Below are positions 9,399 through 27,884 of a stretch of 64,000 bases of DNA, piece by piece (within the stretch, counting starts at the first letter, position 1; the number at the start of each line of letters is the position of its first letter). Below the pieces are notes generated by a model that was given only the letters and a program-made list of their open reading frames with translations, had not been told where the DNA came from and did not search any database. Location: NCBI GenBank assembly GCA_902619375.1, contig CACNEB010000001.1, positions 62,001-126,000 of the forward strand, given 5' to 3'. The DNA comes from an uncultured Alphaproteobacteria bacterium (GTDB lineage Bacteria > Pseudomonadota > Alphaproteobacteria > HIMB59). The translations under genes and the position numbers were made by a program.

Positions 9399-10151
9399 TT
9401 AAGCGATTTTGCTAAATAATAATTGTTGTAGTTTTGATTTCTTTAAGATTTTTTCTACCAATATTTTATCATTACTCGTATTAATAGATTGAGTTGATTT
9501 ATTTACAAGAACTATTTTTAATTTATATTTTTTTTTTAAAACTTTAATTTGTTCAATCGACATTTTTTTTTCAATTTTAGATAAAATTGGCGGATTACTA
9601 TAAATTTCATTCAAAATTTCTTTTGGGTAAAGCATTGTTCCTAAAATTTTAAAAATAGAATGTTTTCTAATTTTATTAATATCATTGGGATCTCTAAAAA
9701 GTTGGATCACATACATTTTTGGATCTACAAGGCATTTAACAATATTTAGATCATAAATTTCATTTTTATTGCATTTTGAAGCAAGATTTAAAACAGTTCT
9801 TTTTAAGTCTATTTGATAATCACTTAATTTTGATAGATAACTAGGAAGAATTAAAGGCTCATCTCCTTGTAATAAAATAATTTTTTTATAAGGTAGTTTT
9901 ATAACTATTTCATTAACTCTACTTGATCCATCAAGATGCTTTTTTTTTGAAATAAAGACACTACCATTATTTTTTAAAATAATTTTGGATATTTTTTTAC
10001 TGTTTGTTACAACATGAACATTTTTAACTTTTGAGAGCAAAGCTCTTCTTCTAACATGCTCTATCATTTCTAAATTGTTAATTTTGGTTAATATTTTATT
10101 TGGAAACCTTATAGAATTTAAATGACAAGGAATAAATATCGCTACTGTCAT
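9399..10151 (-). CDS. 3-deoxy-manno-octulosonate cytidylyltransferase-like (CMP-KDO synthetase family)
   Basis: MTVAIFIPCHLNSIRFPNKIL, VVTNSKKI, LLQGDEPLI; internal Met preferred over the ORF-track start. Confidence 0.75.
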   Translation of the reverse strand: MTVAIFIPCHLNSIRFPNKILTKINNLEMIEHVRRRALLSKVKNVHVVTNSKKISKIILKNNGSVFISKKKHLDGSSRVNEIVIKLPYKKIILLQGDEPLILPSYLSKLSDYQIDLKRTVLNLASKCNKNEIYDLNIVKCLVDPKMYVIQLFRDPNDINKIRKHSIFKILGTMLYPKEILNEIYSNPPILSKIEKKMSIEQIKVLKKKYKLKIVLVNKSTQSINTSNDKILVEKILKKSKLQQLLFSKIA

Positions 10152-10156
10152 AGAGA

Positions 10157-10912
10157 TTATTGTGGCAAAACTCCACAATCTAAATTAATTGATTGTCCTG
10201 TTATAGATGATGATTTCTCGGAGGATAAAAACAACACCAAATCAGCAACATCTTTTTCAGAAGGAAGTGCGTTCAAAGATGAATTATTTCTTATAAAATC
10301 TTTAAAAAAATTTTTATTTTTATATGCAGGAGAGTATCTTTTAGAAATTACGTTCATTAATCCTGGTGTTTTAATCAAAACAGGACAAATACCATTAACC
10401 CTAATATTAAATTCTCCTAGTTCCTTACATAAAGATTGTGTTATTCCATTTAAACCAAACTTTGTTGCACAATATACAGAGTTATATTTTGTTCCTCTTT
10501 TACCAGCGATACTTGAAATATTAATTATATTACCATTTTTAAAACGCTTGAAATGTGGTACGAAATTTTTCAATAAAAAAAAAATACTATATAAATTTGT
10601 ATGAAACATTTGATCTAGAAATTTTTTATTAATTTCCGTTACAGGTTTCCACATTGATTGACCAATATTATTTATTAGAATGTCGATTTTTTTATGTTTA
10701 ACTATGATTTTTTTAGCAAGATTATCAACTTGCTTTTCTTTTGTTAAATCTATTTGATACCAGTAAAAATTTTTTTTGAATTTTTTTTTCGGTGCTGTTC
10801 TACTTAACAAAATAGTTTCGTAACCCTCAAAAATATATTTTTCAGCAATTGCTAAACCAATACCTTTGGATGCCCCAGCTATTACTACTTTTTTCTTTAA
10901 ATCGTCATACAT
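10157..10912 (-). CDS. short-chain dehydrogenase/reductase (SDR)
   Basis: GASKGIGLAIAEK, NNIGQSMW, YCATKFG, SSSITGQSINLDCG. Confidence 0.85.
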   Translation of the reverse strand: MYDDLKKKVVIAGASKGIGLAIAEKYIFEGYETILLSRTAPKKKFKKNFYWYQIDLTKEKQVDNLAKKIIVKHKKIDILINNIGQSMWKPVTEINKKFLDQMFHTNLYSIFFLLKNFVPHFKRFKNGNIINISSIAGKRGTKYNSVYCATKFGLNGITQSLCKELGEFNIRVNGICPVLIKTPGLMNVISKRYSPAYKNKNFFKDFIRNNSSLNALPSEKDVADLVLFLSSEKSSSITGQSINLDCGVLPQ

Positions 10913-11676
10913 GAAAAACCACCATCTACTATTACTTCTGAGCCTGTTACAAAAGCTGAGGAGTCTGAACTTAAATATAATACAGCTGAAATCAATTCTT
11001 TTGGATCACCAAATCTTTGTAATGGAGTATGACTTATAATTTTATCTATTCTTTTTTTATCTAAGAAGTTTTTTTTGTTCCATTCAGTTGGAAAAAAACC
11101 TGGTCTTAAAGAGTTTACTCTTACCCCAGACATAGCCCATTCTCTTGCTAGATTTTTAGTAAGATTGGTTATAGCTGCTTTTGAGGCAGAATAGGCGTAC
11201 GCCCTTGACAAAGGTGGATCAGCTGATGTTGACGATATATTAATTATAGAGCCATTTTTATTTTGAACCATAGATCCACCAATTAATTTGCAAGAGATAA
11301 ATACAGAATTTAATTGAGATTCAATTACATCATTCCAATTAGCTAAATCAATGTCTAAGAAATCTTTAGAACTATTTATGCCTGAGCCATTAATTAAAAT
11401 ATCAACTTTACAGATAAGATTTATTTTATCATTTATCTCGTAGATAATTTCATAATTTGTAGTGTCTACACTAAATTTATAAATATTAGGTTTAGTTATT
11501 ATAGATTTGATTTTATTTTCTAATATTTCTAATTTTTCTGCATCTTTATCAATAAGGAACAAATTTGAGCCTAATCTTGCAAAAGCTAAAGCCATTTCAC
11601 TACACAAATGACCACCTGCACCAGTTATTACTACATTCTTATTTTTAAAGTTAAATAATTTATCTATATATTGCAT
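10897..11676 (-). CDS. short-chain dehydrogenase/reductase (SDR)
   Basis: ITGAGGHLCSEMA, NGSGINSS, YSASKAAI, FVTGSEVIVDGG. Confidence 0.85.
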   Translation of the reverse strand: MQYIDKLFNFKNKNVVITGAGGHLCSEMALAFARLGSNLFLIDKDAEKLEILENKIKSIITKPNIYKFSVDTTNYEIIYEINDKINLICKVDILINGSGINSSKDFLDIDLANWNDVIESQLNSVFISCKLIGGSMVQNKNGSIINISSTSADPPLSRAYAYSASKAAITNLTKNLAREWAMSGVRVNSLRPGFFPTEWNKKNFLDKKRIDKIISHTPLQRFGDPKELISAVLYLSSDSSAFVTGSEVIVDGGFSCMTI

Positions 11677-11682
11677 TTAAAT

Positions 11683-12477
11683 TTATTTTAATGAAGCAAT
11701 AGTGTTTTCAACTTGTTCGGCCCATTTCCATAAAGCAAATAAATCAGATCCGAGTACTATAAAATTAAAACCTAAATCTATATTTTTTTTTATGTTCTCA
11801 GAGTTAACATCATTAATCTGTATCCCACAACTGACATTATTTTTTTTACATATATCAGATACTTTTTTACAGTTATTAATTACAATTTCACTGTCTAGTT
11901 GACCAGGAACACCTAAAGAACCTGATAGATCATAAGGGCCAATCATCACAGCATCAATAGTTTGATGAGATAAGATTTTTTCTAAATTCTCAACTCCTTC
12001 TTTATTCTCAATTTGTATCATGAAAGTAGAAGTCTCATTCCAATTAGAAAAATAGTTATCAATTGAAATACCATAATTCTGAGCTCTATTTACCCCAAAT
12101 GTTCTTTGACCAATGGGGGGATACTTAAAACTTTTATATAAAAAATCTACTTCTTTGACACTACTAACTGTTGGAAACATCATTCCATCAGGGCCCGAGT
12201 CTAATAGCGGTTTAATTTGTTCAACGGAATGGGAGACTATACGTGGTATACATGGTACACCAAAAGATTGTGAGGCAGCTATAATTCTTTGAGCTTCACT
12301 AATACTAATTGTAGAGTGTTCCATGTCAATTACATTAAAATCAAAATTAATATTAGAAAATATTTCTGTTATGGATGGATGAGAAAATGAAATCCAACCA
12401 ACAAAAAGTGTTTTTTGTCTGTTTGTTAGTTTATCTTTAAGTTTCTTTCTTAATTGATTATTAAAATTTCTATCCAT
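11683..12477 (-). CDS. HpcH/HpaI family class II aldolase
   Basis: NVIDMEHSTISI, LDSGPDGMMFPTVSSVKEV, MIQIENKEGVENL, MIGPYDLSGSLGVPGQ. Confidence 0.85.
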   Translation of the reverse strand: MDRNFNNQLRKKLKDKLTNRQKTLFVGWISFSHPSITEIFSNINFDFNVIDMEHSTISISEAQRIIAASQSFGVPCIPRIVSHSVEQIKPLLDSGPDGMMFPTVSSVKEVDFLYKSFKYPPIGQRTFGVNRAQNYGISIDNYFSNWNETSTFMIQIENKEGVENLEKILSHQTIDAVMIGPYDLSGSLGVPGQLDSEIVINNCKKVSDICKKNNVSCGIQINDVNSENIKKNIDLGFNFIVLGSDLFALWKWAEQVENTIASLK

Positions 12478-12865
12478 CTATTAAATTATGTAAGTGTATT
12501 ATTCCATAAAGTTTATCATTTTGATCAATAATTGGGACATCCCATATTTTATTTTTTTTCATATAGGTAACTACTTTTTCTTTTGTAAGTTTATTATTAA
12601 TTAAAAAAAATTGTGGCTTTTTATTCATATAATTTGTGATATCGTCAATCAAGATAGCTGAGAGAGGTTTTTGAATTTTTAAAAATATTCTTCTTAAGTC
12701 ACCATCAGTAAAAATACCTGTTAAATTTAAATTTTTATTTGTTATACAAACAGCCCCAATCTTATGAAAGTTCATTAAAGAGATAGCATCATAAACAGTC
12801 GCATTTTCGGTTAGCACAGGAAAATCACCCAACTTAATAATTATTTTTTCAAACTCAACAGACAT
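12470..12865 (-). CDS. stand-alone CBS-domain-pair protein resembling the C-terminal half of KdsD/KpsF arabinose-5-P isomerase, without a SIS domain
   Basis: FHKIGAVCITNKNLNLTGIFTDGDLRR is a CBS motif in KdsD style; no SIS isomerase domain; start placed at internal MSVEF. Confidence 0.7.
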   Translation of the reverse strand: MSVEFEKIIIKLGDFPVLTENATVYDAISLMNFHKIGAVCITNKNLNLTGIFTDGDLRRIFLKIQKPLSAILIDDITNYMNKKPQFFLINNKLTKEKVVTYMKKNKIWDVPIIDQNDKLYGIIHLHNLIDG

Positions 12866-13736
12866 TAGATAGATCCCAATTTTTATTAATTTCAAGAACA
12901 GTTTGGTGCAATCTTATAGCATGGCTTAATAAAGGCTTCAAATCTTTGATATTTAACTGAGTGTATGGATCGGATAAAGCTTTCTCTGGGTTATCATGAA
13001 CTTCAAGAAATAAAGCATTTATCCCAGCTCCAACTGCTGCTCTTACTAATGCAGGTATGAATTCTCTTTGTCCTCCAGATAGATTACCAAGAGATGTAGG
13101 AAGTTGGATAGAGTGAGTTGCGTCATAACAAACAGGTTGTTTTGTTTCGGACATAATTTGAAAGCATCTCATATCATTTACCAACATGTCGTATCCAAAA
13201 AATGTTCCACGATCAGTTAAAAGAATTTGATCATTTCCGAATTCTTTTAATTTTTTGACAGAATTTCTAATATTCCATGGACTCATAAATTGTCCTTTTT
13301 TTAAATTAATTGGTTTTTTTGTTTTGGCAGCTGCTCTTAAAATAGAAGTTTGTCGACAAAGATATGCGGGTACTTGAACCATATCGCAAACGATACCTGT
13401 ATGTTCTGCCCATTCCACACTTGAAAAATCAGAAGTTACTGGAATTTTAAATTCAGATCTTACTTCTTCAAGAATTTTAAGACCCTCATCTATTCCCACT
13501 CCATGAAAACTTTTTGGTGATGATCTACAATCCTTATCATAGCAAGATTTATAAATAAATTGAATTTTTAAATCATCACAGATCTTTTTAATATTTTCAG
13601 CCATATAAAAAGTATGATCTTTTGTTTCTATTGCACATGGTCCTGCAATTAATACTAATGGTAAGTTAGACCCTATTTTTATAGTATCGAAATAATTTCC
13701 ATTTATTGTTAAAATGTCAGTATTGATGTAACTCAT
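12855..13736 (-). CDS. kdsA: 2-dehydro-3-deoxyphosphooctonate aldolase (KDO-8-P synthase)
   Basis: LIAGPCAIETKDHT, FIYKSCYDKDCRSSPKSFHGVGIDEGL, PVTSDFSSVEWAE, DRGTFFGYDMLVNDMR. Confidence 0.88.
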   Translation of the reverse strand: MSYINTDILTINGNYFDTIKIGSNLPLVLIAGPCAIETKDHTFYMAENIKKICDDLKIQFIYKSCYDKDCRSSPKSFHGVGIDEGLKILEEVRSEFKIPVTSDFSSVEWAEHTGIVCDMVQVPAYLCRQTSILRAAAKTKKPINLKKGQFMSPWNIRNSVKKLKEFGNDQILLTDRGTFFGYDMLVNDMRCFQIMSETKQPVCYDATHSIQLPTSLGNLSGGQREFIPALVRAAVGAGINALFLEVHDNPEKALSDPYTQLNIKDLKPLLSHAIRLHQTVLEINKNWDLSNVC

Positions 13737-14040
13737 TTAATTTTAAAAGTCCTAATTCTCTTATTTATAATAGATTGAATGGTTGAGAGGCGCTACCTTT
13801 ATATTTTTATGTTTTACTACCATAGCTAGTAAATAAATTTAAATGAGAGCTAACATATTCAATACTCACAATAAAGATATCCCTTTTATAACATAAGACG
13901 AAATAAACCTAGATTGTAGAGGAGATTTATTCTGTGGGTAATTTGCATAATTAATTATGACTCTAAATTTATAATAATCCGTTGTTAAGGGTCATAATAT
14001 TTCTCTTATGTTTTTGTAGGAATATGACAAATTCAATAAT

Positions 14041-14694
14041 TTATTTTTCAAAAATTGAAATATCTAATTTTTTATAATATTTTTTACAAAAGCTAAAATC
14101 ATCTTCAATATGAAACATTCCTGGAAATGCAATACATTTAACGTTTGCGTTATATGCTGACATAGCACTTTCAATTGAGTCCTCAATTGTTAAACATTCA
14201 TTTTCGCTTACACCCAAATTTTTTAGAGCCTTTAAATAAATATCAGGGTAAGGCTTTACTTTTTTTATTAAATTATTATTTCCTATAAAATTAAAATCTG
14301 TTTTTTCTATTTTTTCATTTAGTGTTTTGAAAATAGCATTTATATTTTCAATAGTTGTTGTTGACGCTAGACCAATTTTAATTTTATTTAATTTGGCATA
14401 TTTAATTACGTCTAAAACACCTTCTCTAGGATCAATAACATTTGAATTTAAAAATCTATTAAAATATTGAGTTTTTAATTCTCTAATCTTTTTTGAGTCT
14501 ACTGTTTGATGATTAATCTTTGCAAAATATTCAACTCTCTTTATTCCTCCTGATTTTTTAAGTAATTTTTTGTAATTACTCTTATCCCAATACCAGTCTA
14601 ATCCTAACTCTTTAAATGCATAATTAAATGACTGTCTTTGAATATCAGACGTTTCTACTAAAGTTCCGATAGATCCAAAAATTATAGCTTTCAT
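14041..14694 (-). CDS. HAD family hydrolase (CbbY/beta-phosphoglucomutase-like)
   Basis: IFGSIGTLVET, GLASTTTIENI, KPYPDIYLKALKNLGV, CLTIEDSIESAMSAYNA. Confidence 0.75.
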   Translation of the reverse strand: MKAIIFGSIGTLVETSDIQRQSFNYAFKELGLDWYWDKSNYKKLLKKSGGIKRVEYFAKINHQTVDSKKIRELKTQYFNRFLNSNVIDPREGVLDVIKYAKLNKIKIGLASTTTIENINAIFKTLNEKIEKTDFNFIGNNNLIKKVKPYPDIYLKALKNLGVSENECLTIEDSIESAMSAYNANVKCIAFPGMFHIEDDFSFCKKYYKKLDISIFEK

Positions 14695-14727
14695 TGAATT
14701 TTTTTAAGAATTTTAAATTAGTTATTT

Positions 14728-15495
14728 TTATTTAGCTGTCCAACCACCATCTACCACTATTGATGATCCTGTAATCATTGATGAACCATTTGATGCCAGA
14801 TATACAACCGCAGTAGCTACATCACTTTCAGTAGCTAATCTACCAAGAGGTATATTTTTTAAAGTTTCTTTTTTAAATTTTTTATTAATAAAAAACTTTT
14901 TTACCATTGGAGTTTCAACAAATGTTGGACAAACAGAATTGACACGAATATTTTTTGAAGCTAAATCCAGAGCCATTCCTTTAGTTAACCCTTCAATACC
15001 AAATTTTGTCATATTGTAAGTACTTCTATTTGGTGCTCCAACTTTGCCTAGCTGAGAGGACATATTAATGATACTTCCTGCAATTGTTTTTCTATTTTTA
15101 GACTTTAACATCTTTCTGGATGCTAATTGTGCAACATGAAAAGATGCTTTCAAATTTAAATCAACCATATAATCCATATCTTCTTTTTTAATTTTGTTAA
15201 AAAACTCAGGTATATTTGTTCCCGCATTATTTACTAAAATATCTAATCTATTAATTTTTGAAAAAACTTCAGTTATTTGATCAAAATCAAATAAATCACA
15301 AACATAAAATTCACATTTTCTTTTTAATTTGTTTATTTCTTTTTTAACTTTAATAAGATCTTTTTCAGTGCGACTTAAAATTATTAAATCAGCACCAGCT
15401 TCTGCTAAAGCAATAGCTGAAGCTCTTCCAATACCTTTACCCGCACCCGTCACAAGTGCTATTTTTTTCTTGAGACTTAAACTTTTTAAATACAT
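14728..15495 (-). CDS. short-chain dehydrogenase/reductase (SDR)
   Basis: VTGAGKGIGRASA, NNAGTNIP, YNMTKFGIEG, MITGSSIVVDGGWTA. Confidence 0.87.
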   Translation of the reverse strand: MYLKSLSLKKKIALVTGAGKGIGRASAIALAEAGADLIILSRTEKDLIKVKKEINKLKRKCEFYVCDLFDFDQITEVFSKINRLDILVNNAGTNIPEFFNKIKKEDMDYMVDLNLKASFHVAQLASRKMLKSKNRKTIAGSIINMSSQLGKVGAPNRSTYNMTKFGIEGLTKGMALDLASKNIRVNSVCPTFVETPMVKKFFINKKFKKETLKNIPLGRLATESDVATAVVYLASNGSSMITGSSIVVDGGWTAK

Positions 15496-16820
15496 TACTT
15501 AGGTTTAATTTTAGATACTGGTTTCCCATAGGCTACATTAATACCACCATATCTTCTTGCTCTAACATTACATTGTTCGGCATGGCCTATAAAACCCTCT
15601 AAATATGATAATCTTGATCCATATTCTGCAATTTTTGTAGCTGCTTCATCGGTTGTAATTTTTTGATAAGTATGAGTTTTTATAAATTTACCAACCCATA
15701 AACCGCCTGTGTATCTTCCAGCTTTTTTTGTCGGTAAAGTATGGTTTGTTCCTATTACTTTGTCACCATTCGCAACATTTGTTCTTGCACCCAAAAAAAG
15801 TGCTCCATAAGATGTCATATTTTTTAAAAACCATTCATCTCTATCTGTCATAACTTGAACATGCTCTGAAGCTATTTCATTAGCTTTCATTAACATCTCA
15901 TCATAACTTTCACACAAAATTATTTCACCATAATCTTTCCAGCTAACACCAGCAGTATCTTTTGTTGGTAAAATTTCGAGCAGTCTATCTATTTCTTTTA
16001 TTGTTTCTGTTGCTAAATCTCTAGAATTAGTAATCATTATTGCAGGTGAATTATAACCATGCTCTGCTTGTCCAAGAAGATCTGTAGCACATATCTCTGC
16101 ATCTACAGTATCATCGCATATAATCATTGTTTCAGTAGGACCAGCAAATAAATCGATACCAACCTTACCAAATAATTGTCTTTTTGCTTCCGCAACGTAT
16201 GCGTTTCCAGGACCAACTATCATATCTACTGGTTCTATGGTTTCAGTTCCAATAGCCATAGCTCCAACACCCTGCATTCCACCTAAAACGTATATTTCAT
16301 GTGCTCCTCCCATTTTCATGGCTGTAACTACAGCAGCATTTGGTTTTCCTTGATAGGGGGGTGTTGTTGCTATTATTCTAGGAACTCCAGCAACTGAAGC
16401 AGTGACTACAGACATATGAGCTGATGCCACCATTGGAAATTTTCCAGCAGGAACATAACAGCCAACAGATTGAACAGGTATATTTTTATGTCCAAGAATT
16501 ACACCTGGTTGAGTTTCCACTTCAATTTCACTTAAACTTTTTAATTGTGCCTCGGCAAACGATCGAACTTGTTTTTGTGCAAATCTAATATCCTCTTTGT
16601 CATTATCAGAAACTTCATCCACTAATTTACTTATTTCATCTTCAGATAATCTAAATGAACTAGGTGAGTATTTATCAAATTTCTCTGATAATTCTCTTAC
16701 ATAGCTATCTCCCTTTAATTCAATTTCCTTTAAAGTATTCTCAACTACTGCTTTAACTTTATTGTTTTCTTCAGCTCTTTGTTTTTCATTTAGGCTTTTT
16801 TTGATAAATTCAACTGTCAT
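15495..16820 (-). CDS. histidinol dehydrogenase-family protein of HpsN (sulfopropanediol dehydrogenase)-like type
   Basis: HisD fold motifs ([55 protein letters not shown]) with [19 protein letters not shown] rather than the biosynthetic HisD C-terminus; no his genes nearby. Confidence 0.7.
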
Positions 16821-16822
16821 TT

Positions 16823-17932
16823 TTATTTCTTATGAACTAATTTGAGCACATCTATTCCCAATTGAAATAAAATATGGACAATATCTATTGGTACCCAATT
16901 TTCCCTAATAAGACCTTCATTATGTAAATAAAAATCCATCACTCTCATAGTAACTAATTTATAAGTAGGTTCATATCCGAGCCAATCACTTGAACCGTGT
17001 GTTGCTTGAATACTGTGCCAACCACCTGTCATAGAGTAATTACCATCACCTATTTCAATGTAATGACCAATTTTCCAATAATTTCTCTCTTTAAACGTTA
17101 ATCTAAATGGTAGCTGATGATGCTCAATAAAACCTTTTAAACCTCTAGCAGTGCCTATACCACATGGTCCGTACCACATCATTTTCGGATGCCAATAATC
17201 TTTTTGAGGGTGGTTAATTAATTTCTGTCTTACACTATCTTTAGTAGCTCCAGTATCAGTTTCTGGTTTTATATCTAAACTTCTTTGCATCGTAAGGCCC
17301 TGATCAAGAGTTCTAGCTGATAAATCAGTATCTAGGTTTTCAAAGGTTGTTCCGTCACCAGTAATAGGTCCTGGCCACATTTCTTCTACACCCAAAGATG
17401 AATTAATTGGCCAAAAACCTGCTTGCCTTATAAAATCCATAATATCAATTAACACATGAGAATTGATTATTTTTTCATTTTCTATTTGATGAACCTCACA
17501 TATTCGTAAATGAATAGTTTTACCATTGGAGGGAACTCCTAACCATGGATTGACAAAAGTGCCAGTCAAATGACCAACAGTTGAGACATAAACCCTATCT
17601 TGAAAACTCCCTCCAATTATTAAATTATCTCTTCTCTCTAAGTCTGGAAAAGAATTCAGTAAAGGTTTCCAAAGGGTATTAATTATTTCATCAATGCCTT
17701 TTATGTGATTTACAGGGTGGAATGCATAGATTTCAGCATCCTCATGATATGCATTCTTTATATTTTGACTTAAATCACTATCTTTGGACTCAGAAATTTT
17801 TTTGAGGAGATTTCTAATTTTTTTTTTATTTAATATATTTTCTTTAGGGTCCAAATTTATAATTTTTGCTCCACTTTTAATTGGAATACCGGTATCAAAA
17901 TTTTTAATTTCGCTCAAGTTATATTGCCTCAC
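16823..17932 (-). CDS. two-domain SnoaL-like / NTF2-like protein (type A)
   Basis: two NTF2-like halves: [25 protein letters not shown]...GHLTGTF and [29 protein letters not shown]. Confidence 0.75.
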
Positions 17933-18017
17933 CTATCTAATATCAATAAATATTACTTTGATTAACTTTATAATTTAAATAATATTTAACAAAATGATAA
18001 AATTTAAAATCTAATTA

Positions 18018-18992
18018 ATGACGCAGGATATCAACAGTCGTTTGGTAAAGTTTAATGAGCTTGTTCCTAGTAAAGTTCCTTTTGTAGAAGGGAAACTTAA
18101 AGGGCATCAAGATAGACTGAACTATTCTATAGTTGGCCCTGGAGTGAGCGAGGATACCAAGCAAAACGTCAAGATAGCTGAAGAACATGGTTTCAATATC
18201 GGTGCAGTAAGTGCCGCTCCAATGAACGGATCGGGACTCCATAGCCACACTACTGCAGAAGTATTTTTGATATTTTCAGGCTCTTGGCGCTTTTATTGGG
18301 GCACAGATGGTAAAGAGGGCGAAGTAGTTTTAAACAAAGGAGATGTTGCTTCATTTCCCACTAATATGTTTCGAGGATTTCAAAATGTTAGTGACGAAAA
18401 TGCATTAATATTTGTTGTTCTAGGAGAAAATGATCCGGGCGTGATAACGTGGACACCAAAAGTTTTAGAAAAAGCAAAAGAGTCTGGAATGGTTTTATTA
18501 AATGATAATACCTTAGTTGATCTTGATAAGAATAAAATTCCAGATGGAAAAGTTGCCCTTGAACCTATTAAAGAAAAAGATCTAGACTCTTTTGATCATT
18601 ACACTTCTGAAGAAATCGAAAAATATGTAATACGTTATGAAAATAAGGATAGATATTTAAAAGATGATGAGCATTATGACTCTAATTCAATTTTAAATTA
18701 CCTTGACCATTTTAATGTTCATAACAAAGATTTTGAGCCAAACATAGACCATAACACAGGTTTTGGTTTGACGATGTTAAAAGGTAATAATGCTCATATT
18801 CATCCGTACACATTAAAAGAGTCTGAAGTTTATTTATGTTTAGAAGGTGAATGGGAAGTAACCTGCAATGATCAAAAAACCATAATTGGACCAAACGACT
18901 CTTTCTCGTCTCCCAGAGGATCAAATAGAAGTTTAAAAAATATTAGTAATCAAGAAGGAAGTATCTTTATTATACGACAAAAAAACCTCTAA
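18018..18992 (+). CDS. two-domain cupin (bicupin) protein
   Basis: HSHTTAEVFLIFSGSWRF...GEVVLNKGDVASFP and HIHPYTLKESEVYLCLEGEWEV...GPNDSFSSPRG. Confidence 0.75.
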   Translation: MTQDINSRLVKFNELVPSKVPFVEGKLKGHQDRLNYSIVGPGVSEDTKQNVKIAEEHGFNIGAVSAAPMNGSGLHSHTTAEVFLIFSGSWRFYWGTDGKEGEVVLNKGDVASFPTNMFRGFQNVSDENALIFVVLGENDPGVITWTPKVLEKAKESGMVLLNDNTLVDLDKNKIPDGKVALEPIKEKDLDSFDHYTSEEIEKYVIRYENKDRYLKDDEHYDSNSILNYLDHFNVHNKDFEPNIDHNTGFGLTMLKGNNAHIHPYTLKESEVYLCLEGEWEVTCNDQKTIIGPNDSFSSPRGSNRSLKNISNQEGSIFIIRQKNL

Positions 18993-18994
18993 TA

Positions 18995-19966
18995 ATGAAA
19001 GGTTTTGATAATAAATTTTTAGATCTACCAGATTATATATTTAAAATAACATATCAAATTTGGGAAAATAAAGATGTTGAGTCAATTAGAGACTATTATG
19101 CTGAGGGTATTCCAGTTAGATCTCCAGACGGTGTAATATATGGCCCTGATGCTGTAGTGAAGGCTACTTATGCCACTTTGAATGAATTTCCAGATCGACA
19201 GTTATTAGGCGAAGATGTTATTTGGATTGGTAATGAAGAACACGGATATTTATCATCACATAGAATTTTATCTAAGGCGACGCATTTAAATGATGGTATT
19301 TATGGAAAAGCTACTGGTAAAACTCTCAAGTATCGAGTAATAGCTGATTGTGCTTGCAAGAATAACAAGGTTTACGATGAATGGCTTGTAAGAGACCAGG
19401 GTGCTATTGTGAGGCAGTTAAACATTGATCCTAAAAAACATGCAGCAAATGTAATTGAAAATCAAGGCGGTAAAGATAAATGCCCAGCTCCCTTTAATAA
19501 CAATACCTCACATGAAGTAAAATATATACAAATACCGATCTCAACAAATAATACCGGAATAGATTATGCTAACATTTTAAAGGAAATATTTAATAATAAT
19601 TTTAACATAATAGATAAAGTTTATGATCGATCAGTCAATCAAGAACAGCCTGGAGGCACAAAAGCATTAGGGGTAGATGAGGTAAAGAGTTTTTGGTCTT
19701 CACTAAGATCTATGTTTCCGGATTCAATATTTAGAGTTGAACATGTAAGCTATTTAGAGGAAAAAAATGAGTATAAAAAGGCATCCATTAGATGGTCATT
19801 AGAGGGAATTCATTCAGGACCCGGATTATTTTCTGATCCTAGTAATGCAAATGTTCATATAATGGGAATATCTCAGGCTGAATTTGGTCCAAGAGGGATC
19901 AAAAATGAGTGGGTTCTGTTTGATGAAACAATAATTTGGAAACAAATTTTATTAAAAACTGGATAA
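18995..19966 (+). CDS. two-domain SnoaL-like / NTF2-like protein (type B)
   Basis: IFKITYQIWENKDVESIRDYYAEGIPV...GPDAVVKATYATLNEFPDRQL...DVIWIGNEEHGYLSSHRI plus a second half GVDEVKSFWSSLRSMFPDSIF. Confidence 0.72.
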   Translation: MKGFDNKFLDLPDYIFKITYQIWENKDVESIRDYYAEGIPVRSPDGVIYGPDAVVKATYATLNEFPDRQLLGEDVIWIGNEEHGYLSSHRILSKATHLNDGIYGKATGKTLKYRVIADCACKNNKVYDEWLVRDQGAIVRQLNIDPKKHAANVIENQGGKDKCPAPFNNNTSHEVKYIQIPISTNNTGIDYANILKEIFNNNFNIIDKVYDRSVNQEQPGGTKALGVDEVKSFWSSLRSMFPDSIFRVEHVSYLEEKNEYKKASIRWSLEGIHSGPGLFSDPSNANVHIMGISQAEFGPRGIKNEWVLFDETIIWKQILLKTG

Positions 19967-19969
19967 CAA

Positions 19970-20671
19970 TTGAAACTACTAACAAAAACAGAAAAGAAAA
20001 TAATTGAATACATTAGAAATTTTGACACTCCAACTATCTCAAATTCACTAGAATTATTAGATCCAACTCTACGATCAAAAGGACACACACAAAAAACAAT
20101 GCATTGTCTAAATCCGAGTTTAAAACCAATTATTGGTTTTGCCAAAACAGCGATTATTACATCCAGAAAAAAGAAAAATACAAATATAATAAAAAATAGA
20201 GATAAATATTACGAGTATATGTTCGAAGGAAACTACCCTAAGATTTGTGTTATCGAGGATAAGGATAAGACAAATACAATTGGTGCATGGTGGGGTGAAC
20301 TTAATGCATCTATACATTTAAATTTTGGATTTGTTGGAGCTATAACAAACGGAGCAATGAGAGATTTACAGGAGATAAATAGAAAGTTTCAAATATTAAG
20401 TGGTGAAATAAGAGTAGGGCATGGATACAATCAAATTCATAAAATTAATTGCAATGTTGATATTTTTAATATGAAAGTAAGACCTGACGACCTTATTCAT
20501 GCAGACATACACGGTGCTGTTATAATAAAAAGAGACTTTTTAATTGAATTACCATTGGCCATTAAAAAAATGATAAAAAAAGAAAAAATAATTTTTGATT
20601 TCTTAAGAAAAAATAAAAAATTTTCGAAAAAACAATTCTTAGATAAGTATAAACAATTTATCAATTCATAA
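19970..20671 (+). CDS. RraA-like family protein (TTG start)
   Basis: DTPTISNSLE, GELNASIHLNFGFVGAITNGAMRD, VRPDDLIHADIHGAVII; RraA/HMG aldolase-type fold. Confidence 0.75.
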   Translation: MKLLTKTEKKIIEYIRNFDTPTISNSLELLDPTLRSKGHTQKTMHCLNPSLKPIIGFAKTAIITSRKKKNTNIIKNRDKYYEYMFEGNYPKICVIEDKDKTNTIGAWWGELNASIHLNFGFVGAITNGAMRDLQEINRKFQILSGEIRVGHGYNQIHKINCNVDIFNMKVRPDDLIHADIHGAVIIKRDFLIELPLAIKKMIKKEKIIFDFLRKNKKFSKKQFLDKYKQFINS

Positions 20672-20676
20672 TTATT

Positions 20677-21807
20677 ATGGCATCTAAAATTTTGACAACA
20701 CACGTTGGTAGCTTACCAAGATCCAAAGAACTATCAGAATATCTCTTTACCAAGGATAAGGGTGAAGAATACAACAAAAAATTATTTGGAAATATTTTAA
20801 GCTCAAATGTTGAACAAATTGTAAAAAGACAACTTGAAGTTGGGTTAGATTTCATAAGTGACGGTGAGATGAGCAAGATTAGTTATGCTACTTATATTAA
20901 GGATAGAATTGATGGTTTTTCAGGAGAAAGTGAACGAAGAGCACCTGCCGATTTAGACGATTTTCCAGACTATAAGGAAAAGTTAGCTATTAGTGGAGGA
21001 ACACCTACTTATTCAAGACCATGTTGCACCAATGAATTAAAAATAAAAGATAATTTTTCTTTGTTAAATGATATTGAAAATTTTAGCAACGCCTTAAAAA
21101 AGTATGGTCATGCAAAAGCATTTATGAATGCAGCATCACCGGGTGTTATTAATGTTTTTATGCCAAATAAATTTTACGCTAGCGATGATGAATATTTAAA
21201 TAAACTCTCTAGTATTATGGCAAATGAGTATGAACAAATTACTAATGCAAATATTCATGTTCAATTAGACTGTCCAGATTTAGCACTAGCTAGGCATATG
21301 AATTTTAAAGATCTATCTGAGGAGGATTTTTTAAAAAAAGCTGAAATGCAAATTGAGTGTTTAAATCATGCTTTAAAAAACGTTGATATTGAAAAAACTA
21401 GAATGCATATTTGTTGGGGTAATTATGAGGGGCCACATACTCATGATATAGCTCTAAAAAAAATATTACCTATAATTTTAAAATCAAAAATTAAATATTT
21501 TCTAATTGAGTCATCCAATCCTCGACATGCACATGAGTGGAAAGTCTTTGAAGAAATTAAATTACCAAAAGATAAAGTGTTAGTACCTGGTGTAATTGAC
21601 TCTACATCTAATTTTGTAGAACACCCAGAAGTAGTAGCTGAAAGATTAATAAAGTATTCAACAGTAGTACCTAAAGATCAATTAATGGCTGGGACTGATT
21701 GTGGTTTTAGTACTTTTGCAGGTTTTGGAAAAATTGATGAAAATATTTGTTATGAAAAGCTTAATGCATTAGTGGAGGGTACTAAACTCGCTTCTAAATT
21801 TATTTAG
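20677..21807 (+). CDS. cobalamin-independent methionine synthase C-terminal-type (MetE-like) protein
   Basis: TTHVGSLPRS, HICWGNYEGPH (His-x-Cys zinc ligands), LIESSNPRHAHEW, MAGTDCGFSTFAG; no N-terminal MetE domain. Confidence 0.8.
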   Translation: MASKILTTHVGSLPRSKELSEYLFTKDKGEEYNKKLFGNILSSNVEQIVKRQLEVGLDFISDGEMSKISYATYIKDRIDGFSGESERRAPADLDDFPDYKEKLAISGGTPTYSRPCCTNELKIKDNFSLLNDIENFSNALKKYGHAKAFMNAASPGVINVFMPNKFYASDDEYLNKLSSIMANEYEQITNANIHVQLDCPDLALARHMNFKDLSEEDFLKKAEMQIECLNHALKNVDIEKTRMHICWGNYEGPHTHDIALKKILPIILKSKIKYFLIESSNPRHAHEWKVFEEIKLPKDKVLVPGVIDSTSNFVEHPEVVAERLIKYSTVVPKDQLMAGTDCGFSTFAGFGKIDENICYEKLNALVEGTKLASKFI

Positions 21808-22804
21808 AATTTTCATTTTTATTTCTCTCAAGTAAATCAATACCCACACATTTTAAAAAATGAAGATGATCAATCAATATCCAATTTTCTGCTATTTTAT
21901 CTCCATCTCTTCTATAAAGGTCAACAACTCTCATCTCCCCTATAAGATCTGTGTCTTGTTTGAAACCCATGTAATTACCTTTTGGTTTCATTTTTAAATT
22001 TGGCCAACCAAACCACCCACCATAATTGCCCTCTGAGTTTTCAAGTATATGTCCGGAGAAATCAATAAAATCTAGATTATCCTCAAAAGGGCCCGTGTGA
22101 CCTTTTAAATAACCTTCATAGGTATATGATGCACCAATACCCCCAGGTCCCCACCATATCATGTCCTCATGCCAGTCTTTATGTAGATCTTGAATTGTTG
22201 TCCTCAACCCCTCACCAATTAATCGATTTGCCATTCTCATTATAAGGTCAAGAGTTTTCTTTCCTTCTATTTCACTTTGTTTATCAAAACATAAACCCTG
22301 ATGTGTTTTAGGCCCTGGATTAAAGCCAATCATCCCCGTTGACTCTGGGACAACTGATAAATTTAAATGTTGCATAAATTTTAAAATGTCTAAAAAAAAA
22401 GCACCTTCTTGTATTTTGTTATCCTCTACTTTATAAAACTCGCAATACCATAACATTACAGTTTTAAAATTTGGTTGAATGTCAAAAAAAGGAAAATTAA
22501 AACTTCCAAGCAAATGTCCCATATTCACAACCCATTTTGAAGAATGATTATCAACTAAATTTGTGCCAGCATAAAAGATATCCATTCTTCTTTGGATAGG
22601 CTTAAACGATTTTTTTATAGGAAACCAAAATTTTGTTGCAAATTCTTCAATGCCTATTATTTCGTTAAAAGGATGCGTACATTTCATATTAAAATTATTA
22701 GATGTGTACTTAGAAATTATTTCAATTAAGTTATTTTCACTAGCATTATCAACTTCATTTATAAAATTTAATACTAATGATTTTTCTTTCTGAAAATCAG
22801 ACAT
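21800..22804 (-). CDS. two-domain SnoaL-like / NTF2-like protein (type A paralogue)
   Basis: NEIIGIEEFATKFWFPIKKSFKPIQRR...GHLLGSF and HEDMIWWGPGGIGASYTYEGYLKGHTGPF, parallel to the 16823-17932 product. Confidence 0.72.
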   Translation of the reverse strand: MSDFQKEKSLVLNFINEVDNASENNLIEIISKYTSNNFNMKCTHPFNEIIGIEEFATKFWFPIKKSFKPIQRRMDIFYAGTNLVDNHSSKWVVNMGHLLGSFNFPFFDIQPNFKTVMLWYCEFYKVEDNKIQEGAFFLDILKFMQHLNLSVVPESTGMIGFNPGPKTHQGLCFDKQSEIEGKKTLDLIMRMANRLIGEGLRTTIQDLHKDWHEDMIWWGPGGIGASYTYEGYLKGHTGPFEDNLDFIDFSGHILENSEGNYGGWFGWPNLKMKPKGNYMGFKQDTDLIGEMRVVDLYRRDGDKIAENWILIDHLHFLKCVGIDLLERNKNENSK

Positions 22805-22899
22805 TAGTCTAATTATAATACAAAAGAAAAAATAATAATATTCATTTTATATAAAATCATTGCTTTGAATTTTATTTAATAGTATTAGTAAATTTATTC

Positions 22900-24039
22900 A
22901 TGAAAAAAACTCTAATTAAAGATTTAAAACCAATCCCTTTAAAAGATCATCATATGCCAAAAAATTTTAATATCTCTCTTAAATCTTATGGTGGAGGTGG
23001 TAATGCTAAATCTTTAAATCCAAACCCTAAAAATTTACCATTTCAGTCAATGCGAGGATTTGAAAAACAATATAAAAATATAATTGATTATATTGTCAGA
23101 ATTACTTACAGCATATGGGAAGAAAAAAATATTGGCTATATATACGATACTTATAGCCCAAAATGTCGTGTTTGGGATGAACTTGGATTGCAATTTGGAT
23201 CTGAAAAAATTGTCTCTGATACAGTTCATACTAATAACGCCTTCCCGAATATTCGATTATATGCTGATGAGGTAATATGGGCAGGAGACGACAAAACTAG
23301 TTTTCATACTTCACACAGAACTATAATTACAGGCACTAATACGGGTTATAGTAATTTTTCCAAACCAACAGGTAAATCAGTTAGATTGTTCTGTATTGCA
23401 AACTGTGTAGCAAAAAATAATGAAATATATTACGAAAATGTTGTTTATGATACTGCAGGTTTAATAAAACAATTAGGCTTAGACTTAAATGAAGTAGCAA
23501 AACAAATTGCTAATAAAGGAAATATTGGTCCATTTGCTCCTGATTTTAGAAATTCAAAACCCAAAAGAAATATTAAAAAGTTAAAGCCTATAAGTTTCGC
23601 TATACCTGATAAAATAAAAAACATTAGAGAATTTGTGCATGCAGTTTTTGATACTATTTGGAATAGAAGAAATTTTTCTGCTATTGATAGCGTTTACACA
23701 AAAAATATTAAATTTGAAGGCTCAACTAGTCGAAAATTTATTGGAATACCTAAGCTTAAACATTTTATTATCTCATTAATTGCATCATTTCCTGATCTTG
23801 CACTTAGTGTTGAAGATCTATATTGGATGGGAAATAGTAAAGATGGTTATTTAGTTTCAATTCGTTGGGGTGCTGTGGGAACTCATAAAGGAAATGGAAT
23901 TTATGGTAAACCATCTAATAAAGAATGTTATCTCTGGGGTATTACACAATGGGAAATTAAAAATAATAAAATTGTAAAAGAATGGACTGGTTTCAATGAA
24001 TTGGCAATCTTAATACAAATTTTAGGGAAAAAAAAATGA
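22900..24039 (+). CDS. two-domain SnoaL-like / NTF2-like protein (type B paralogue)
   Basis: IVRITYSIWEEKNIGYIYDTYSPKCRV...NAFPNIRLYADEVIWAGDDKTSFHTSHR...; parallel to the 18995-19966 product. Confidence 0.72.
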   Translation: MKKTLIKDLKPIPLKDHHMPKNFNISLKSYGGGGNAKSLNPNPKNLPFQSMRGFEKQYKNIIDYIVRITYSIWEEKNIGYIYDTYSPKCRVWDELGLQFGSEKIVSDTVHTNNAFPNIRLYADEVIWAGDDKTSFHTSHRTIITGTNTGYSNFSKPTGKSVRLFCIANCVAKNNEIYYENVVYDTAGLIKQLGLDLNEVAKQIANKGNIGPFAPDFRNSKPKRNIKKLKPISFAIPDKIKNIREFVHAVFDTIWNRRNFSAIDSVYTKNIKFEGSTSRKFIGIPKLKHFIISLIASFPDLALSVEDLYWMGNSKDGYLVSIRWGAVGTHKGNGIYGKPSNKECYLWGITQWEIKNNKIVKEWTGFNELAILIQILGKKK

Positions 24040-24455
24040 ATATAAATGAAAATAAAATACTGTTGCAAAATATGTACGATGCTTTGAATGCACAAGATTT
24101 AGAGGCACAGCATAAATATTGGAACGATGATATGATTTGGCATGGACCTCCAGGCTTTGGCGATATTCACGGTATTGAAAATTTTAAATATAAGGTTCTC
24201 AAACCTTTTTATGCAGCGTTTCCAGACTATCATGTAAAAAATGATATTGTTGTCGCAGAAGGTGAATGGATAAGTGCGACGGGTTATTTAACTGGAACTC
24301 ATAGCGGTACTTATCTAGGAGTAAAACCAACTGGAAAGTCAATTAAAATGCAGTTTTCTGACTTTTGGACAATTAAAAATGGTAAATTTATGGATAATTA
24401 TGTAATGGTCGATAACCATGGTGTTTTTGAACAAATGGGTCTTAGTTTTAAATAA
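24036..24455 (+). CDS. single-domain SnoaL-like / NTF2-like protein
   Basis: LQNMYDALNAQDLEAQHKYWNDDMIWHGPPGFGDIHGIENFKYKVLKPFYAAFPDYHVKNDIVVAEGEWISATGYLTGTHSG. Confidence 0.8.
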   Translation: MNINENKILLQNMYDALNAQDLEAQHKYWNDDMIWHGPPGFGDIHGIENFKYKVLKPFYAAFPDYHVKNDIVVAEGEWISATGYLTGTHSGTYLGVKPTGKSIKMQFSDFWTIKNGKFMDNYVMVDNHGVFEQMGLSFK

Positions 24456-24564
24456 AAAAGAATATCATAATAATTTCCGCGACCATTTCTCTTACATTTT
24501 AATTTTGTTTTATTTAGTATAGTTTTAAAAATAACTTTTTATTAACAAAAAGAAGAGGAAATAA

Positions 24565-25800
24565 ATGAAAAAACTAATAATAGCCCTATTGATCTCTTTT
24601 GCATCTACTAGTGTTTTTGCAGGTAGCCATTCACCTTGTGGTGTAACAAGCGGTTCAATAAATATATTAGCTAACGAATTTACTACATACAGAATTTTTA
24701 TGGATGAAGTAAAAAGTTGTGCTGGACCAGATGCGGATTTTAATGTCACGCACTCTGTTGACCATAATAAATTACAAGTAGCTGCTTTATCAGCAAACCC
24801 TGCTGAATTTTCAGCAAAATTAGTTACTAATGGTTCAATTACACCTTTAATGAATGACGGTTTAATTCGTCCACTAGATGATTTAGTTGCAAAATATGGG
24901 TCAAACTTAAATGATAACCAAAAGATTACAATTGATGGTAAGATTTATGCTGTAGCTTTTATGGCTAATGCACAACATCTTTGGTACAGAGAGAGTATTC
25001 TTAACGATTTAGGCATAGCTGTTCCTTCTACTTATGAAGAAGTAATTGCTGCTGCTGAAAAAATTAAAGCAGCTGGAGTAATGGAAAATCCATATGCAGG
25101 AGCTTTCAAATCGGGATGGAATCTTGGTCAAGAGTTTGTAAATATGTATCTTGGTCATGGTGGTGAGTTTTTTATATCAGGTACTGCACAACCTAACGTG
25201 AATAATGAAAAAGGTGTTGCAGCACTTAATGTTATTAAAAAATTAACTGAGCTAAGTAATCCTGACTTTTTAACACAAGATACTAATGCTGTTAAAGAAG
25301 AATGGGAGTCTGGTAATGTTGCATTAATGCATATTTGGAACTCAGGTGCAGCTTCTTTACTTGATGACGAAGGTGATCAAAATATCAAAGCTGATACACG
25401 ATTAGCACCTTCACCAACTGTGGGCGGTGGAAACAAGCCAGCAACTACTTTGTGGTGGGATGGAATTGCAATTGCAACAAATACATCTGATGAAAACGCA
25501 GAGTCCTCATTTAGAGCTTTGGTTGGAGCCGCTTCATCAACTGATTTAGCAAATAACAACCCAAATGCTACTGTTTGGTTGATTAAAGGTTACACACCTG
25601 GCGATACAGCAGGGCCTGTTGTTGACGCAGCAAGTAGAGGCACAACACCTTACCCTAGTTTTCCACACATGAGCTTAATGCACGGTGCTTTAAGTACAGA
25701 ACTTGTGGAATTTCTTCAAGGTAATGAGTCAGCCGAAAAAGCATTAGCTGATGTTGAAGCTGCTTACATAGCTAAGGCTACTGAGCAGGGTTTTTTATAA
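24565..25800 (+). CDS. carbohydrate ABC transporter substrate-binding protein
   Basis: signal peptide; ITPLMNDGLIRPLDDLV, YAVAFMANAQHLWYRESIL, ATTLWWDGIAIATNTS; UgpB/MalE-type binding protein. Confidence 0.82.
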   Translation: MKKLIIALLISFASTSVFAGSHSPCGVTSGSINILANEFTTYRIFMDEVKSCAGPDADFNVTHSVDHNKLQVAALSANPAEFSAKLVTNGSITPLMNDGLIRPLDDLVAKYGSNLNDNQKITIDGKIYAVAFMANAQHLWYRESILNDLGIAVPSTYEEVIAAAEKIKAAGVMENPYAGAFKSGWNLGQEFVNMYLGHGGEFFISGTAQPNVNNEKGVAALNVIKKLTELSNPDFLTQDTNAVKEEWESGNVALMHIWNSGAASLLDDEGDQNIKADTRLAPSPTVGGGNKPATTLWWDGIAIATNTSDENAESSFRALVGAASSTDLANNNPNATVWLIKGYTPGDTAGPVVDAASRGTTPYPSFPHMSLMHGALSTELVEFLQGNESAEKALADVEAAYIAKATEQGFL

Positions 25801-25822
25801 ACCAAAGCTAATTAATTCTATT

Positions 25823-25852
25823 AAGTGTGGAACTTAGTAAAGTTCCACACTT
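25823..25852 (+). terminator. intercistronic hairpin between ABC binding-protein and permease genes (attenuator/stabiliser)
   Basis: perfect 13-bp inverted repeat AAGTGTGGAACTT-AGTA-AAGTTCCACACTT just after the binding-protein stop. Confidence 0.75.
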
Positions 25853-25870
25853 TATTACAAAAAAAATATA

Positions 25871-26899
25871 ATGCCTCACAGAACTTTCTTTTGGTTTATT
25901 TTACCTACAGCTCTGGCAATGATTTTGTTTATAGGTTTACCAATTGTTTCTAGTTTCTTTCAATCCCTTCATATTGAAAATGAACAGGTTCTTATGGAGG
26001 TGGAAAATTGTGATCCATTTGGGTGTACTACAAATGTTAGAGTAGATGTAGAAGCTACAGAAAAAATAGAGGCTGAAAATCCTTTGGGAAGATTTAATGG
26101 CTTTGGCACTTATACTGATAGAAATCACTTAGCTTTTGATGAAATAGAAGAGGCATGGGATAACACGTCATCAATAGGTGAATTCAAAGATATTGTTTTA
26201 AATCTTCCTTTTTATAAAGCATTATTATTTACATTAACATTTTGTTTTGCTGTTACCCCACCAGTGATAGTATTAGGTTTTATAGTAGCTTTAAGTGTCA
26301 ATACTTTAGCAAAGAGTCTAAAAGGTCTAATTGTATTTGGTACAATTTTACCAATGATTGTAACACCTTTAATTGGTTCTTTAGTATTGTTTTGGATGAT
26401 TGACTCTCAAGGAATAATTGGAGCCAGTATCCAAATTCTTTTTGATGACCCTAATTTGTCTTTAAAAGCCTCGAGTAATTTAACATGGATAACCTTAATT
26501 ATTTATGGAATATGGCATAATACTCCCTTTGCTTTTGTTGTTTTTTATGCAGCCTTGCAGACTGTCCCACAAGATCCTTTAGAAGCAGCCTACATTGATG
26601 GTGCAACAAGATTTGAACGCGTTCGTTTTATCGTTATTCCTCATCTATACCCTGTGGCTACTTTCATAATGCTAATCTGTTTAATGGATAATTTTAGAGT
26701 ATTCGAACCTATTATTGGTTTTTCTGCCGAGGGTGTAGCTCAATCATTATCATGGATGATTTATCAAGACTTAAGAAATGAAAATAAAATGCTTTTTGGA
26801 TCTGCTGGAGCCACGTCAATGTTAACTATATTAGGAATAGCTTTTTTACTTACACCTGTACTAATTAGAACTTGGAAAGAATTTAAAACTGAAAGATAA
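25871..26899 (+). CDS. sugar ABC transporter permease (MalF/UgpA-like)
   Basis: EAAYIDGATRFERVRFIVIPHLYPV EAA loop; polytopic. Confidence 0.82.
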   Translation: MPHRTFFWFILPTALAMILFIGLPIVSSFFQSLHIENEQVLMEVENCDPFGCTTNVRVDVEATEKIEAENPLGRFNGFGTYTDRNHLAFDEIEEAWDNTSSIGEFKDIVLNLPFYKALLFTLTFCFAVTPPVIVLGFIVALSVNTLAKSLKGLIVFGTILPMIVTPLIGSLVLFWMIDSQGIIGASIQILFDDPNLSLKASSNLTWITLIIYGIWHNTPFAFVVFYAALQTVPQDPLEAAYIDGATRFERVRFIVIPHLYPVATFIMLICLMDNFRVFEPIIGFSAEGVAQSLSWMIYQDLRNENKMLFGSAGATSMLTILGIAFLLTPVLIRTWKEFKTER

Positions 26900-27781
26900 A
26901 TGAACCAAACAATCAATAAATATTCAAAACAAATAATAATCGTAAATAGTATCTTTATATTATTTTGGCTTACTATATCAATTTTTCCTTTTATTTGGAC
27001 ACTCTGGGGTTCCTTCAAAGTAAAAGCAGATTTTTTCTCAAGAGCTGATTGGACATATGCTTTAAGTGGTTTTAATACTTTAATTGAAACAGGTGCCACG
27101 ACAACATTTAAAGCGTATTTAGAGTCATGGACAGAGGGCGAATTTGGAAGAGCTACAATGAATACAATGATTGTTACTGTGTCAGTAGTATCAATTTCAT
27201 TGTTTCTTGGAACTTTAGGTGCTTATGCTTTGTCTAGGTCAACGTTCAAATATACTTTTTATATTCTAATTATTGCTTTGATATTTAGAGCTATGCCACA
27301 CATTACTTTAGTATCAGGCTACTTATTTCCTTTTTTCCAATTAAATATATGGGGAATACTTCCAACTACAATTATTGTTTTGGTAGCTATAAACCAACCA
27401 TTTACTCTTTGGTTGCTGTACTCTTTTTTTAAAACTGTACCAAAAGAATTAGATGAAAGTGCTTTGATTGATGGTTGCTCATATTTTCAAGCATTTAGAT
27501 ATATTATTATGCCAGTAATGTGGCCTGGAGTTGTTACGGCAGGTTTATTTAGTATGATGTTGGCGTATAACGATTTTACAGTCACCGCATTGTTACTTAA
27601 TCAGCATAATTATACAATGGTGCCTAAAATTAATGCTTATCTCGGCACAGTAGAATACGGTGGGAATTATATGTGGGCAGTATCAAGTGTTGTTTCTGCG
27701 ACAGCCCCTTTATTTATGATTATATGGTTTTTTCAAAGACAATTAATCAGTGGTCTAACAGCTGGGGCTGTAAAAGGTTAA
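26900..27781 (+). CDS. sugar ABC transporter permease (MalG/UgpE-like)
   Basis: ELDESALIDGCSYFQAFRYIIMPVMWPG EAA loop; polytopic. Confidence 0.82.
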   Translation: MNQTINKYSKQIIIVNSIFILFWLTISIFPFIWTLWGSFKVKADFFSRADWTYALSGFNTLIETGATTTFKAYLESWTEGEFGRATMNTMIVTVSVVSISLFLGTLGAYALSRSTFKYTFYILIIALIFRAMPHITLVSGYLFPFFQLNIWGILPTTIIVLVAINQPFTLWLLYSFFKTVPKELDESALIDGCSYFQAFRYIIMPVMWPGVVTAGLFSMMLAYNDFTVTALLLNQHNYTMVPKINAYLGTVEYGGNYMWAVSSVVSATAPLFMIIWFFQRQLISGLTAGAVKG

Positions 27782-27884
27782 TTTAAGTTATTTAAATTTT
27801 TTAAATCGAAATATCAAAGTATTTTTATTTTATCTGGTACATGTAATTTTAGTAAAATATCCTCTAAAATAATATTTATTATTA

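Follow-up and report, generated by a model that had tools for sequence, protein, structure and literature searches.

Two independently inherited modules encoding tandem-SnoaL proteins in a putative catabolic island of an uncultured HIMB59 alphaproteobacterium

Introduction

The closest described systems to the proteins considered here are (i) the polyketide cyclases of the SnoaL/AknH/IdmH type together with the single-domain 'ester cyclases' and (ii) the polyether epoxide hydrolases Lsd19 and MonBI-MonBII, in which SnoaL-like folds likewise occur in pairs. In Lsd19 (lasalocid), one chain comprises two catalytic domains that perform different ring closures (PMC8827043). In this study, a stretch of 64,000 nucleotides (hereafter called the window) from an uncultured alphaproteobacterium of the HIMB59 lineage (contig CACNEB010000001.1, positions 62,001 to 126,000) was analyzed. 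It contains a cluster with five SnoaL-type genes, of which four encode two-domain proteins (A, B, A' and B') and one encodes a single-domain protein (S).

The proteins of the window share with the SnoaL/AknH/IdmH-type cyclases and single-domain 'ester cyclases' the predicted fold of each half (Foldseek matches of the A and B models to 3kkg, 6hnn and 1sjw), a T-H-x-G motif and a terminal family Asp. However, A, A', B and B' consist of two fused domains with uneven loss of residues, and their surroundings are of a catabolic type (importer, dehydrogenases, LacI) and not a polyketide cluster. From Lsd19 and MonBI-MonBII the window A differs by its low identity (about 10-13%), and no epoxidase partner was found in those clusters for which annotations were inspected. 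For the AEGEAN-169/HIMB59 clade, which is probably that of the present organism, an alpha-glucoside ATP-binding cassette (ABC) transporter has been reported (PMC10308909). It represents the same kind of importer genes as that of the window, but the main text of that report mentions neither SnoaL nor histidinol dehydrogenase, so the transporter was not tied to these genes.

Results and Discussion

Modular composition of the cluster

The cluster in the window combines two independently inherited modules. Across relatives, module 1 (M1) consists of the genes for a HisD-like dehydrogenase (HDH), A, a short-chain dehydrogenase/reductase (SDR), B, a bicupin, an RraA-like protein and, usually, a MetE-like protein, to which LacI, an alpha/beta-hydrolase and an ABC importer are added in other families. 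Module 2 (M2) comprises A' and B' together with an AglEFG-like importer and, in most cases, S. Both modules were found in Ensifer adhaerens E-60 (about 5 kb apart), in Octadecabacter arcticus (with a transposase fragment between them) and on one plasmid of Ruegeria conchae (about 120 kb apart). They also occur separately: a plasmid of Phaeobacter piscinae carries M2 and no M1, while a genome that is 96% complete (G211) and locus L125 have M1-type genes with no B' nearby, and a whole-genome search of G211 recovered only its own B. Gene order is flexible, since A' adjoins M1 without B' in several families, and the regions inspected in Sinorhizobium medicae, Roseibium and Deinococcus carry B'-type genes and no A. 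No paper describing either module was found in the open-licence literature searched.

In the window, M1 starts with three genes on the minus strand, encoding the SDR oxidoreductase (14728-15495; Pfam adh_short), the HDH, a HisD/HpsN-like Zn/NAD alcohol dehydrogenase (15495-16820; Pfam/TIGR00069), and A (16823-17932; Pfam SnoaL in two stretches, AlphaFold2 model, tree). On the plus strand follow the bicupin (18018-18992; Pfam Cupin_2 in two stretches), B (18995-19966; assigned on the same evidence as A), the RraA-like protein of the aldolase/decarboxylase family (19970-20671; PF03737) and a core-MetE-like protein of the cobalamin-independent methionine synthase II family (20677-21807; Pfam Meth_synt_2), which scores far below the methionine-synthase equivalog cut-offs. 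The SDR is 81-84% identical to its counterparts beside HDH in same-genus loci and 34-43% identical to SDRs in clusters of other families, and bicupin homologues (28-40%) adjoin B in many relatives. M2 consists of A' (21800-22804, minus strand; assigned by its BLAST score to A and by the A' clade) and, all on the plus strand, B' (22900-24039; with an N-terminal extension of 50 residues, assigned by its score to B and by the tree), S (24036-24455; Pfam SnoaL, E 1.7e-24) and an AglEFG-like sugar ABC importer composed of a binding protein and two permeases (24565-27781). S shares 58% identity with the S of the Phaeobacter piscinae plasmid M2 and 32-38% with the S proteins of other families. The importer proteins are 55, 64 and 60% identical to those of the Ruegeria conchae M2, and the binding protein has weak PDB matches to several sugar-binding proteins, with no single substrate indicated.

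Genes for SBP56-type selenium-binding proteins were observed beside the Phaeobacter piscinae M2 (L241:4635-6032) and beside the Marinovum M1 (L240:17361-18758), and at the Marinovum locus genes for dimethylsulfoniopropionate (DMSP) breakdown then follow. The SBP56-type family includes methanethiol oxidases.

The island and its insertion site

Both modules, together with genes for sugars resembling 3-deoxy-D-manno-octulosonate (KDO), lie in a genomic island of 18.7 kb (9217-27884; genes on both strands), whose left edge is a tRNA-Arg(TCT) gene (9140-9216, plus strand; ARAGORN). The island is missing from this tRNA-Arg site in two sister genomes of the same genus, G032 (L253) and G027 (L257), in which the ABC gene corresponding to that at 8300, the tRNA-Arg(TCT) gene and the gene corresponding to that at 27885 are contiguous. 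In the window, 18.7 kb separate the tRNA-Arg(TCT) gene from gene 27885. In two further genomes (G012 and G015) other genes flank the module, and its location therefore varies. No second copy of the 3' end of the tRNA-Arg gene, and hence no attachment repeat, was found elsewhere in the window, and the base composition of the island is not foreign (GC content 0.303 vs 0.306 for the rest).

The left part of the island (9399-13736), with a GC content of 0.276 as compared with 0.32 in the SnoaL modules, carries the KDO-like sugar genes. These encode a KdsA-like synthase, a CMP-KDO-synthetase-like protein, an HpcH-type aldolase and two SDRs (all named by eye from the sequence). The same SnoaL cluster is present in CM1_5m.P70 (G007; L122/L147), where frameshifts split many genes and leave A, the cupin, B and RraA intact; this copy was left out of the analysis, as its frameshifts may be sequencing errors rather than decay.

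Proposed function

In many families, the surroundings of A and B contain LacI regulators, ABC importers, dehydrogenases, and aldolase-type and hydrolase genes. The importer, the LacI regulators of relatives, the dehydrogenases, the aldolase-family protein and the hydrolases point to a polar compound that is imported and degraded, and the SnoaL proteins, judged by this gene company and by the chemistry of their family, most likely perform acid-base steps on its carbon skeleton. On balance, we favour the view that the region is an accessory island for catabolism, composed of two modules with separate inheritance, and that its tandem-SnoaL proteins are acid-base enzymes acting on an imported polar compound; any particular reaction of the pathway is proposed with less confidence. 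In such a pathway, the AglEFG-like importer would take up a polar, probably hydroxylated compound, and the four tandem-SnoaL proteins, together with S, would carry out general acid-base chemistry on its carbon skeleton (candidate reactions are aldol-type cyclisation or opening, dehydration and isomerisation). Alcohols would be oxidised by the dehydrogenases, and cleavage of the product would fall to the RraA-like protein or, in relatives, to the hydrolase.

Several points weigh against this proposal. The order of steps is not fixed by the MetE-like, RraA and bicupin proteins, all of which belong to broad families, and some NTF2-like proteins are non-catalytic. Moreover, the linkage of A' with B' is imperfect: in a survey of 289 Alphaproteobacteria genomes, only 2 of 9 genomes with A' also had B'.

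SnoaL families and candidate active-site residues

The sequence-only reading of this DNA had described five SnoaL open reading frames (ORFs), with A resembling A' and B resembling B', and all five were found where it had placed them. Their PF07366 scores (A 62, B 73, A' 37, B' 80 and S 87 bits) exceed the curated cut-off of 28.4 bits, with two matching stretches in each of A, A', B and B' and one in S. BLAST comparison of A with A' gave 28-31% identity (143 bits over 334 aa), and that of B with B' gave 32-33% (172 bits over 328 aa), i.e. both pairs are homologous over their full two-domain length. ORFs of 18 control loci with unrelated SnoaL proteins reached at most 60 bits against A, A', B or B', and the pairs are clearly closer to each other than to such proteins. 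The A-type and B-type motifs named by that reading are visible in the alignments, and the motif W-x-G-P-x-G-[IF]-G is indeed present in the single-domain S.

A role as polyketide cyclases was also considered. S scored 27.8 bits against NF033407 (SnoaL polyketide methyl-ester cyclase), far from the cut-off of 200, while A, B, A' and B' gave no match; the neighbouring genes encode an importer, dehydrogenases, a cupin, RraA and (in relatives) LacI, and this role was rejected.

The comparison of nine half-domains suggested earlier was performed with profiles built from relatives (the four two-domain proteins, halved, and S) using hhalign. N-terminal halves pair with N-terminal halves and C-terminal with C-terminal ones, in A/A' (scores of 232-237 and 217-225, respectively) as well as in B/B' (314-319 and 193-197), so the fusion in each family predates the A/A' and B/B' splits. 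The two halves of one protein are weakly similar in A (67-75) and B (55-57) and moderately so in B' (163-169). Halves of A and halves of B score 12-75 against each other, and A-type and B-type proteins are separate families, not variants of one protein. The C-terminal half of A scores higher with S (190-194) than with its own N-terminal half (67-75), and A may have arisen by fusion of an S-like domain with another, more distant one.

AlphaFold2 models of B and A, each based on a 14-sequence alignment, had mean predicted local distance difference test (pLDDT) values of 91.7 and 87.5 and predicted template modelling (pTM) scores of 0.89 and 0.88, respectively, and show the SnoaL order of helices and strands twice per protein. 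Foldseek matches of both models to SnoaL proteins in the PDB had target-normalised template modelling scores (TMt) of about 0.7-0.8. The B model matched single-domain SnoaL proteins (3kkg, 6hnn and others), and none of the 50 matches listed spanned both of its halves. For the A model, the top matches were Lsd19 (3rga) and the MonBI-MonBII complex (9kw6), but the alignment across both domains had a root-mean-square deviation of about 17 Å over ~333 columns and a query-normalised score (TMq) of 0.30. According to these models, the single domains would match those of Lsd19 and MonBI-MonBII, while the domain arrangement would not.

The check on candidate catalytic His and Asp residues, likewise suggested by the sequence-only reading, revealed a half-wise pattern. 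The family Asp near the domain end is conserved in A (N-half 14/14, C-half 13/14), A' (21/21 in both halves), B (27/27 in both halves) and S (13/13); in B' it is present in 17/19 N-halves and 9/19 C-halves. In B, the His of T-H-x-G is found in 26/27 N-halves and 27/27 C-halves, and the Glu before the Asp in 27/27 of both. A keeps His, Glu and Asp in its C-half (12-13 of 14), with Ser or Ala for Glu in the N-half. A' holds all three in its N-half (19-21 of 21), and its C-half has lost the His. The full set is thus present in both halves of B, the C-half of A and the N-half of A', and in neither half of the window B'. Asn replaces the C-half Asp in the B' proteins of the window, Phaeobacter, Octadecabacter, Ruegeria, two Ensifer copies and two Deinococcus copies, and in B' proteins of A'/B' modules the N-half His is mostly replaced by Asn. 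Their conservation, position and family resemblance suggest that the His, Glu and Asp of the SnoaL halves are catalytic, and the uneven distribution of the set would fit enzymes specialised for successive or parallel steps better than redundant copies.

The same residues bear on the idea that the tandem-SnoaL proteins are non-catalytic proteins that bind, or act as scaffolds for, an imported metabolite. NTF2-like folds do include non-enzymes, many paralogues occur in one cluster, and the Asn substitutions in both halves of B' from A'/B' modules would agree with such a role. It nevertheless seems unlikely, given the conservation of His, Glu and Asp in both halves of B (26-27 of 27) and of the Asp in all N-halves of A and A' and nearly all their C-halves.

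Distribution and co-occurrence of A and B

Besides the 289 Alphaproteobacteria, public plasmids and 52 genomes of the same genus were surveyed; in the latter, A-family and B-family matches were each found in 31 of 52 genomes, many of which are incomplete, so that some absences may represent missing data. Among the 289 genomes, at the thresholds used, the A-family was detected in 21 and the B-family in 24. All 21 genomes with A also had B (Fisher p 5e-29, uncorrected for shared ancestry), and whole-genome searches identified three (G065, G281 and G297) with B and without detectable A. Public plasmid records were matched by B (53), B' (60), A (23) and A' (23), some of the B and B' matches being weak, and the carriers include Roseobacteraceae, rhizobia, Vibrio, Pantoea, Deinococcus, Priestia and the archaeon Halobellus. 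A' and B' are located close together in Phaeobacter, Octadecabacter, Ensifer E-60 and Ruegeria conchae.

This distribution could reflect an obligate heteromeric enzyme of A and B, with A' and B' forming a second heteromer. The absence of A without B in the 289 genomes and the adjacency of A' and B' on several plasmids agree with it, and MonBI and MonBII, which are of related fold, were deposited as a complex (9kw6). However, it is disfavoured because genomes with B-type genes and no detectable A exist, namely the three mentioned above. B-type genes likewise lack an A on the Sinorhizobium medicae, Roseibium and Deinococcus stretches, A-type genes without a two-domain B occur on the plasmid regions inspected in Halobellus and Vibrio europaeus, and A and B of the window are divergently transcribed. 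We regard an obligate heteromer as improbable.

The plasmid of Halobellus limi (L242:10911-17304) carries four A-type genes in a row, with a single-domain SnoaL gene, a MetE-like gene and an ABC importer nearby.

The HisD-like dehydrogenase

The nearest PDB entry to the window HDH is HpsN (8v35; E 8e-110), the 3-dehydrogenase of (R)-dihydroxypropanesulfonate (DHPS), and the window protein also passes the broad cut-off of TIGR00069. HpsN and the histidinol dehydrogenase HisD are discriminated by a motif reading G-R-Y-A/S-H in the former, where His126 binds the sulfonate, and G-S-A-P-L in the latter (PMC11382572). The window HDH shares with both the conserved Zn-site and catalytic motifs QAEHG, SEH and GDK..G.NH, but neither discriminating motif is present in it; it reads G-K-F-P-M at this position, and most cluster HDHs of other families read G-K-[FY]-P-[MLI]. 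By this signature, it probably represents a third subclass of HisD-like dehydrogenases. At loci L124-L126, A is accompanied by a different HisD-like HDH (46-47% identity to the window HDH), with G-R-N-N-Y in L124, G-R-Y-N-N in L125 and the HpsN signature G-R-Y-A-H in L126 (1396-2682; AG-461-B13).

With HpsN as the nearest solved relative, and with its motif in the adjacent HDH of L126, the cluster might be thought to degrade DHPS or another C3 sulfonate via an HpsN-type dehydrogenase. This is very improbable, since G-K-[FY]-P-[MLI] takes the place of the motif with His126 in the window HDH and in most cluster HDHs of other families, and the annotation of the clusters that were read lists no sulfolactate lyase (SuyAB).

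In Pantoea (L250), Roseibium (L251) and Ensifer Corn53 (L252), two hisD-like genes are located near a B'-type gene, accompanied in the first two by an annotated amidase, and one HDH in each of the three reads G-R-Y-P-[IL].

Phylogeny and origin of the pairs

Midpoint-rooted trees were calculated for the A-family (60 rows) and the B-family (49 rows), with a few long branches flagged. In the A-family tree, A' forms a clade of 21 rows (support 100/100), comprising many alphaproteobacterial families and Vibrio, in which the window A' groups with the M2 protein of Ruegeria conchae (100/97). The B-family tree is split, again with 100/100 support, into 19 B'-type and 30 B-type rows. The B' clade includes Deinococcus, and the window B' is placed with the plasmid protein of Phaeobacter piscinae (98/97; 60-61% identity), apart from the B of its own cluster. 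The window A and B cluster with their own orthologues, apart from A' and B', and local duplication therefore cannot explain the pairs. In these trees, A/A' and B/B' emerge as ancient clades, older than the alphaproteobacterial families.

A recent in-place duplication of an A+B unit, which would account for the presence of one A-type and one B-type gene in each half of the cluster, is scarcely credible, as A/A' and B/B' are just 28-33% identical, both splits are older than the genus and span families and phyla, the window B' is nearer to the Phaeobacter plasmid protein than to B, and M1 and M2 also exist separately. The A+B unit of the sequence-only reading holds insofar as A-type and B-type genes recur together (21/21), but it was not duplicated within this cluster.

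Conclusions

Tentatively, the cluster may belong to a catabolic pathway that is undescribed in the literature searched. It would be characterized by tandem-SnoaL sets with complementary, half-wise loss of residues and by a third HisD-like subclass, and would occur in Alphaproteobacteria. Vibrio, Pantoea and Deinococcus would carry gene sets related to it, and the haloarchaeon Halobellus a relative with A only. Genes labelled merely as 'ester cyclase' prove to form a conserved set that moves horizontally and is linked to nutrient uptake in bacteria of the ocean and in rhizobia of the soil. With residues retained in opposite halves, the fused domains would offer a natural series for studying the specialisation of paired active sites and, if the pathway is real, a part of dissolved organic matter is consumed via chemistry not yet described.

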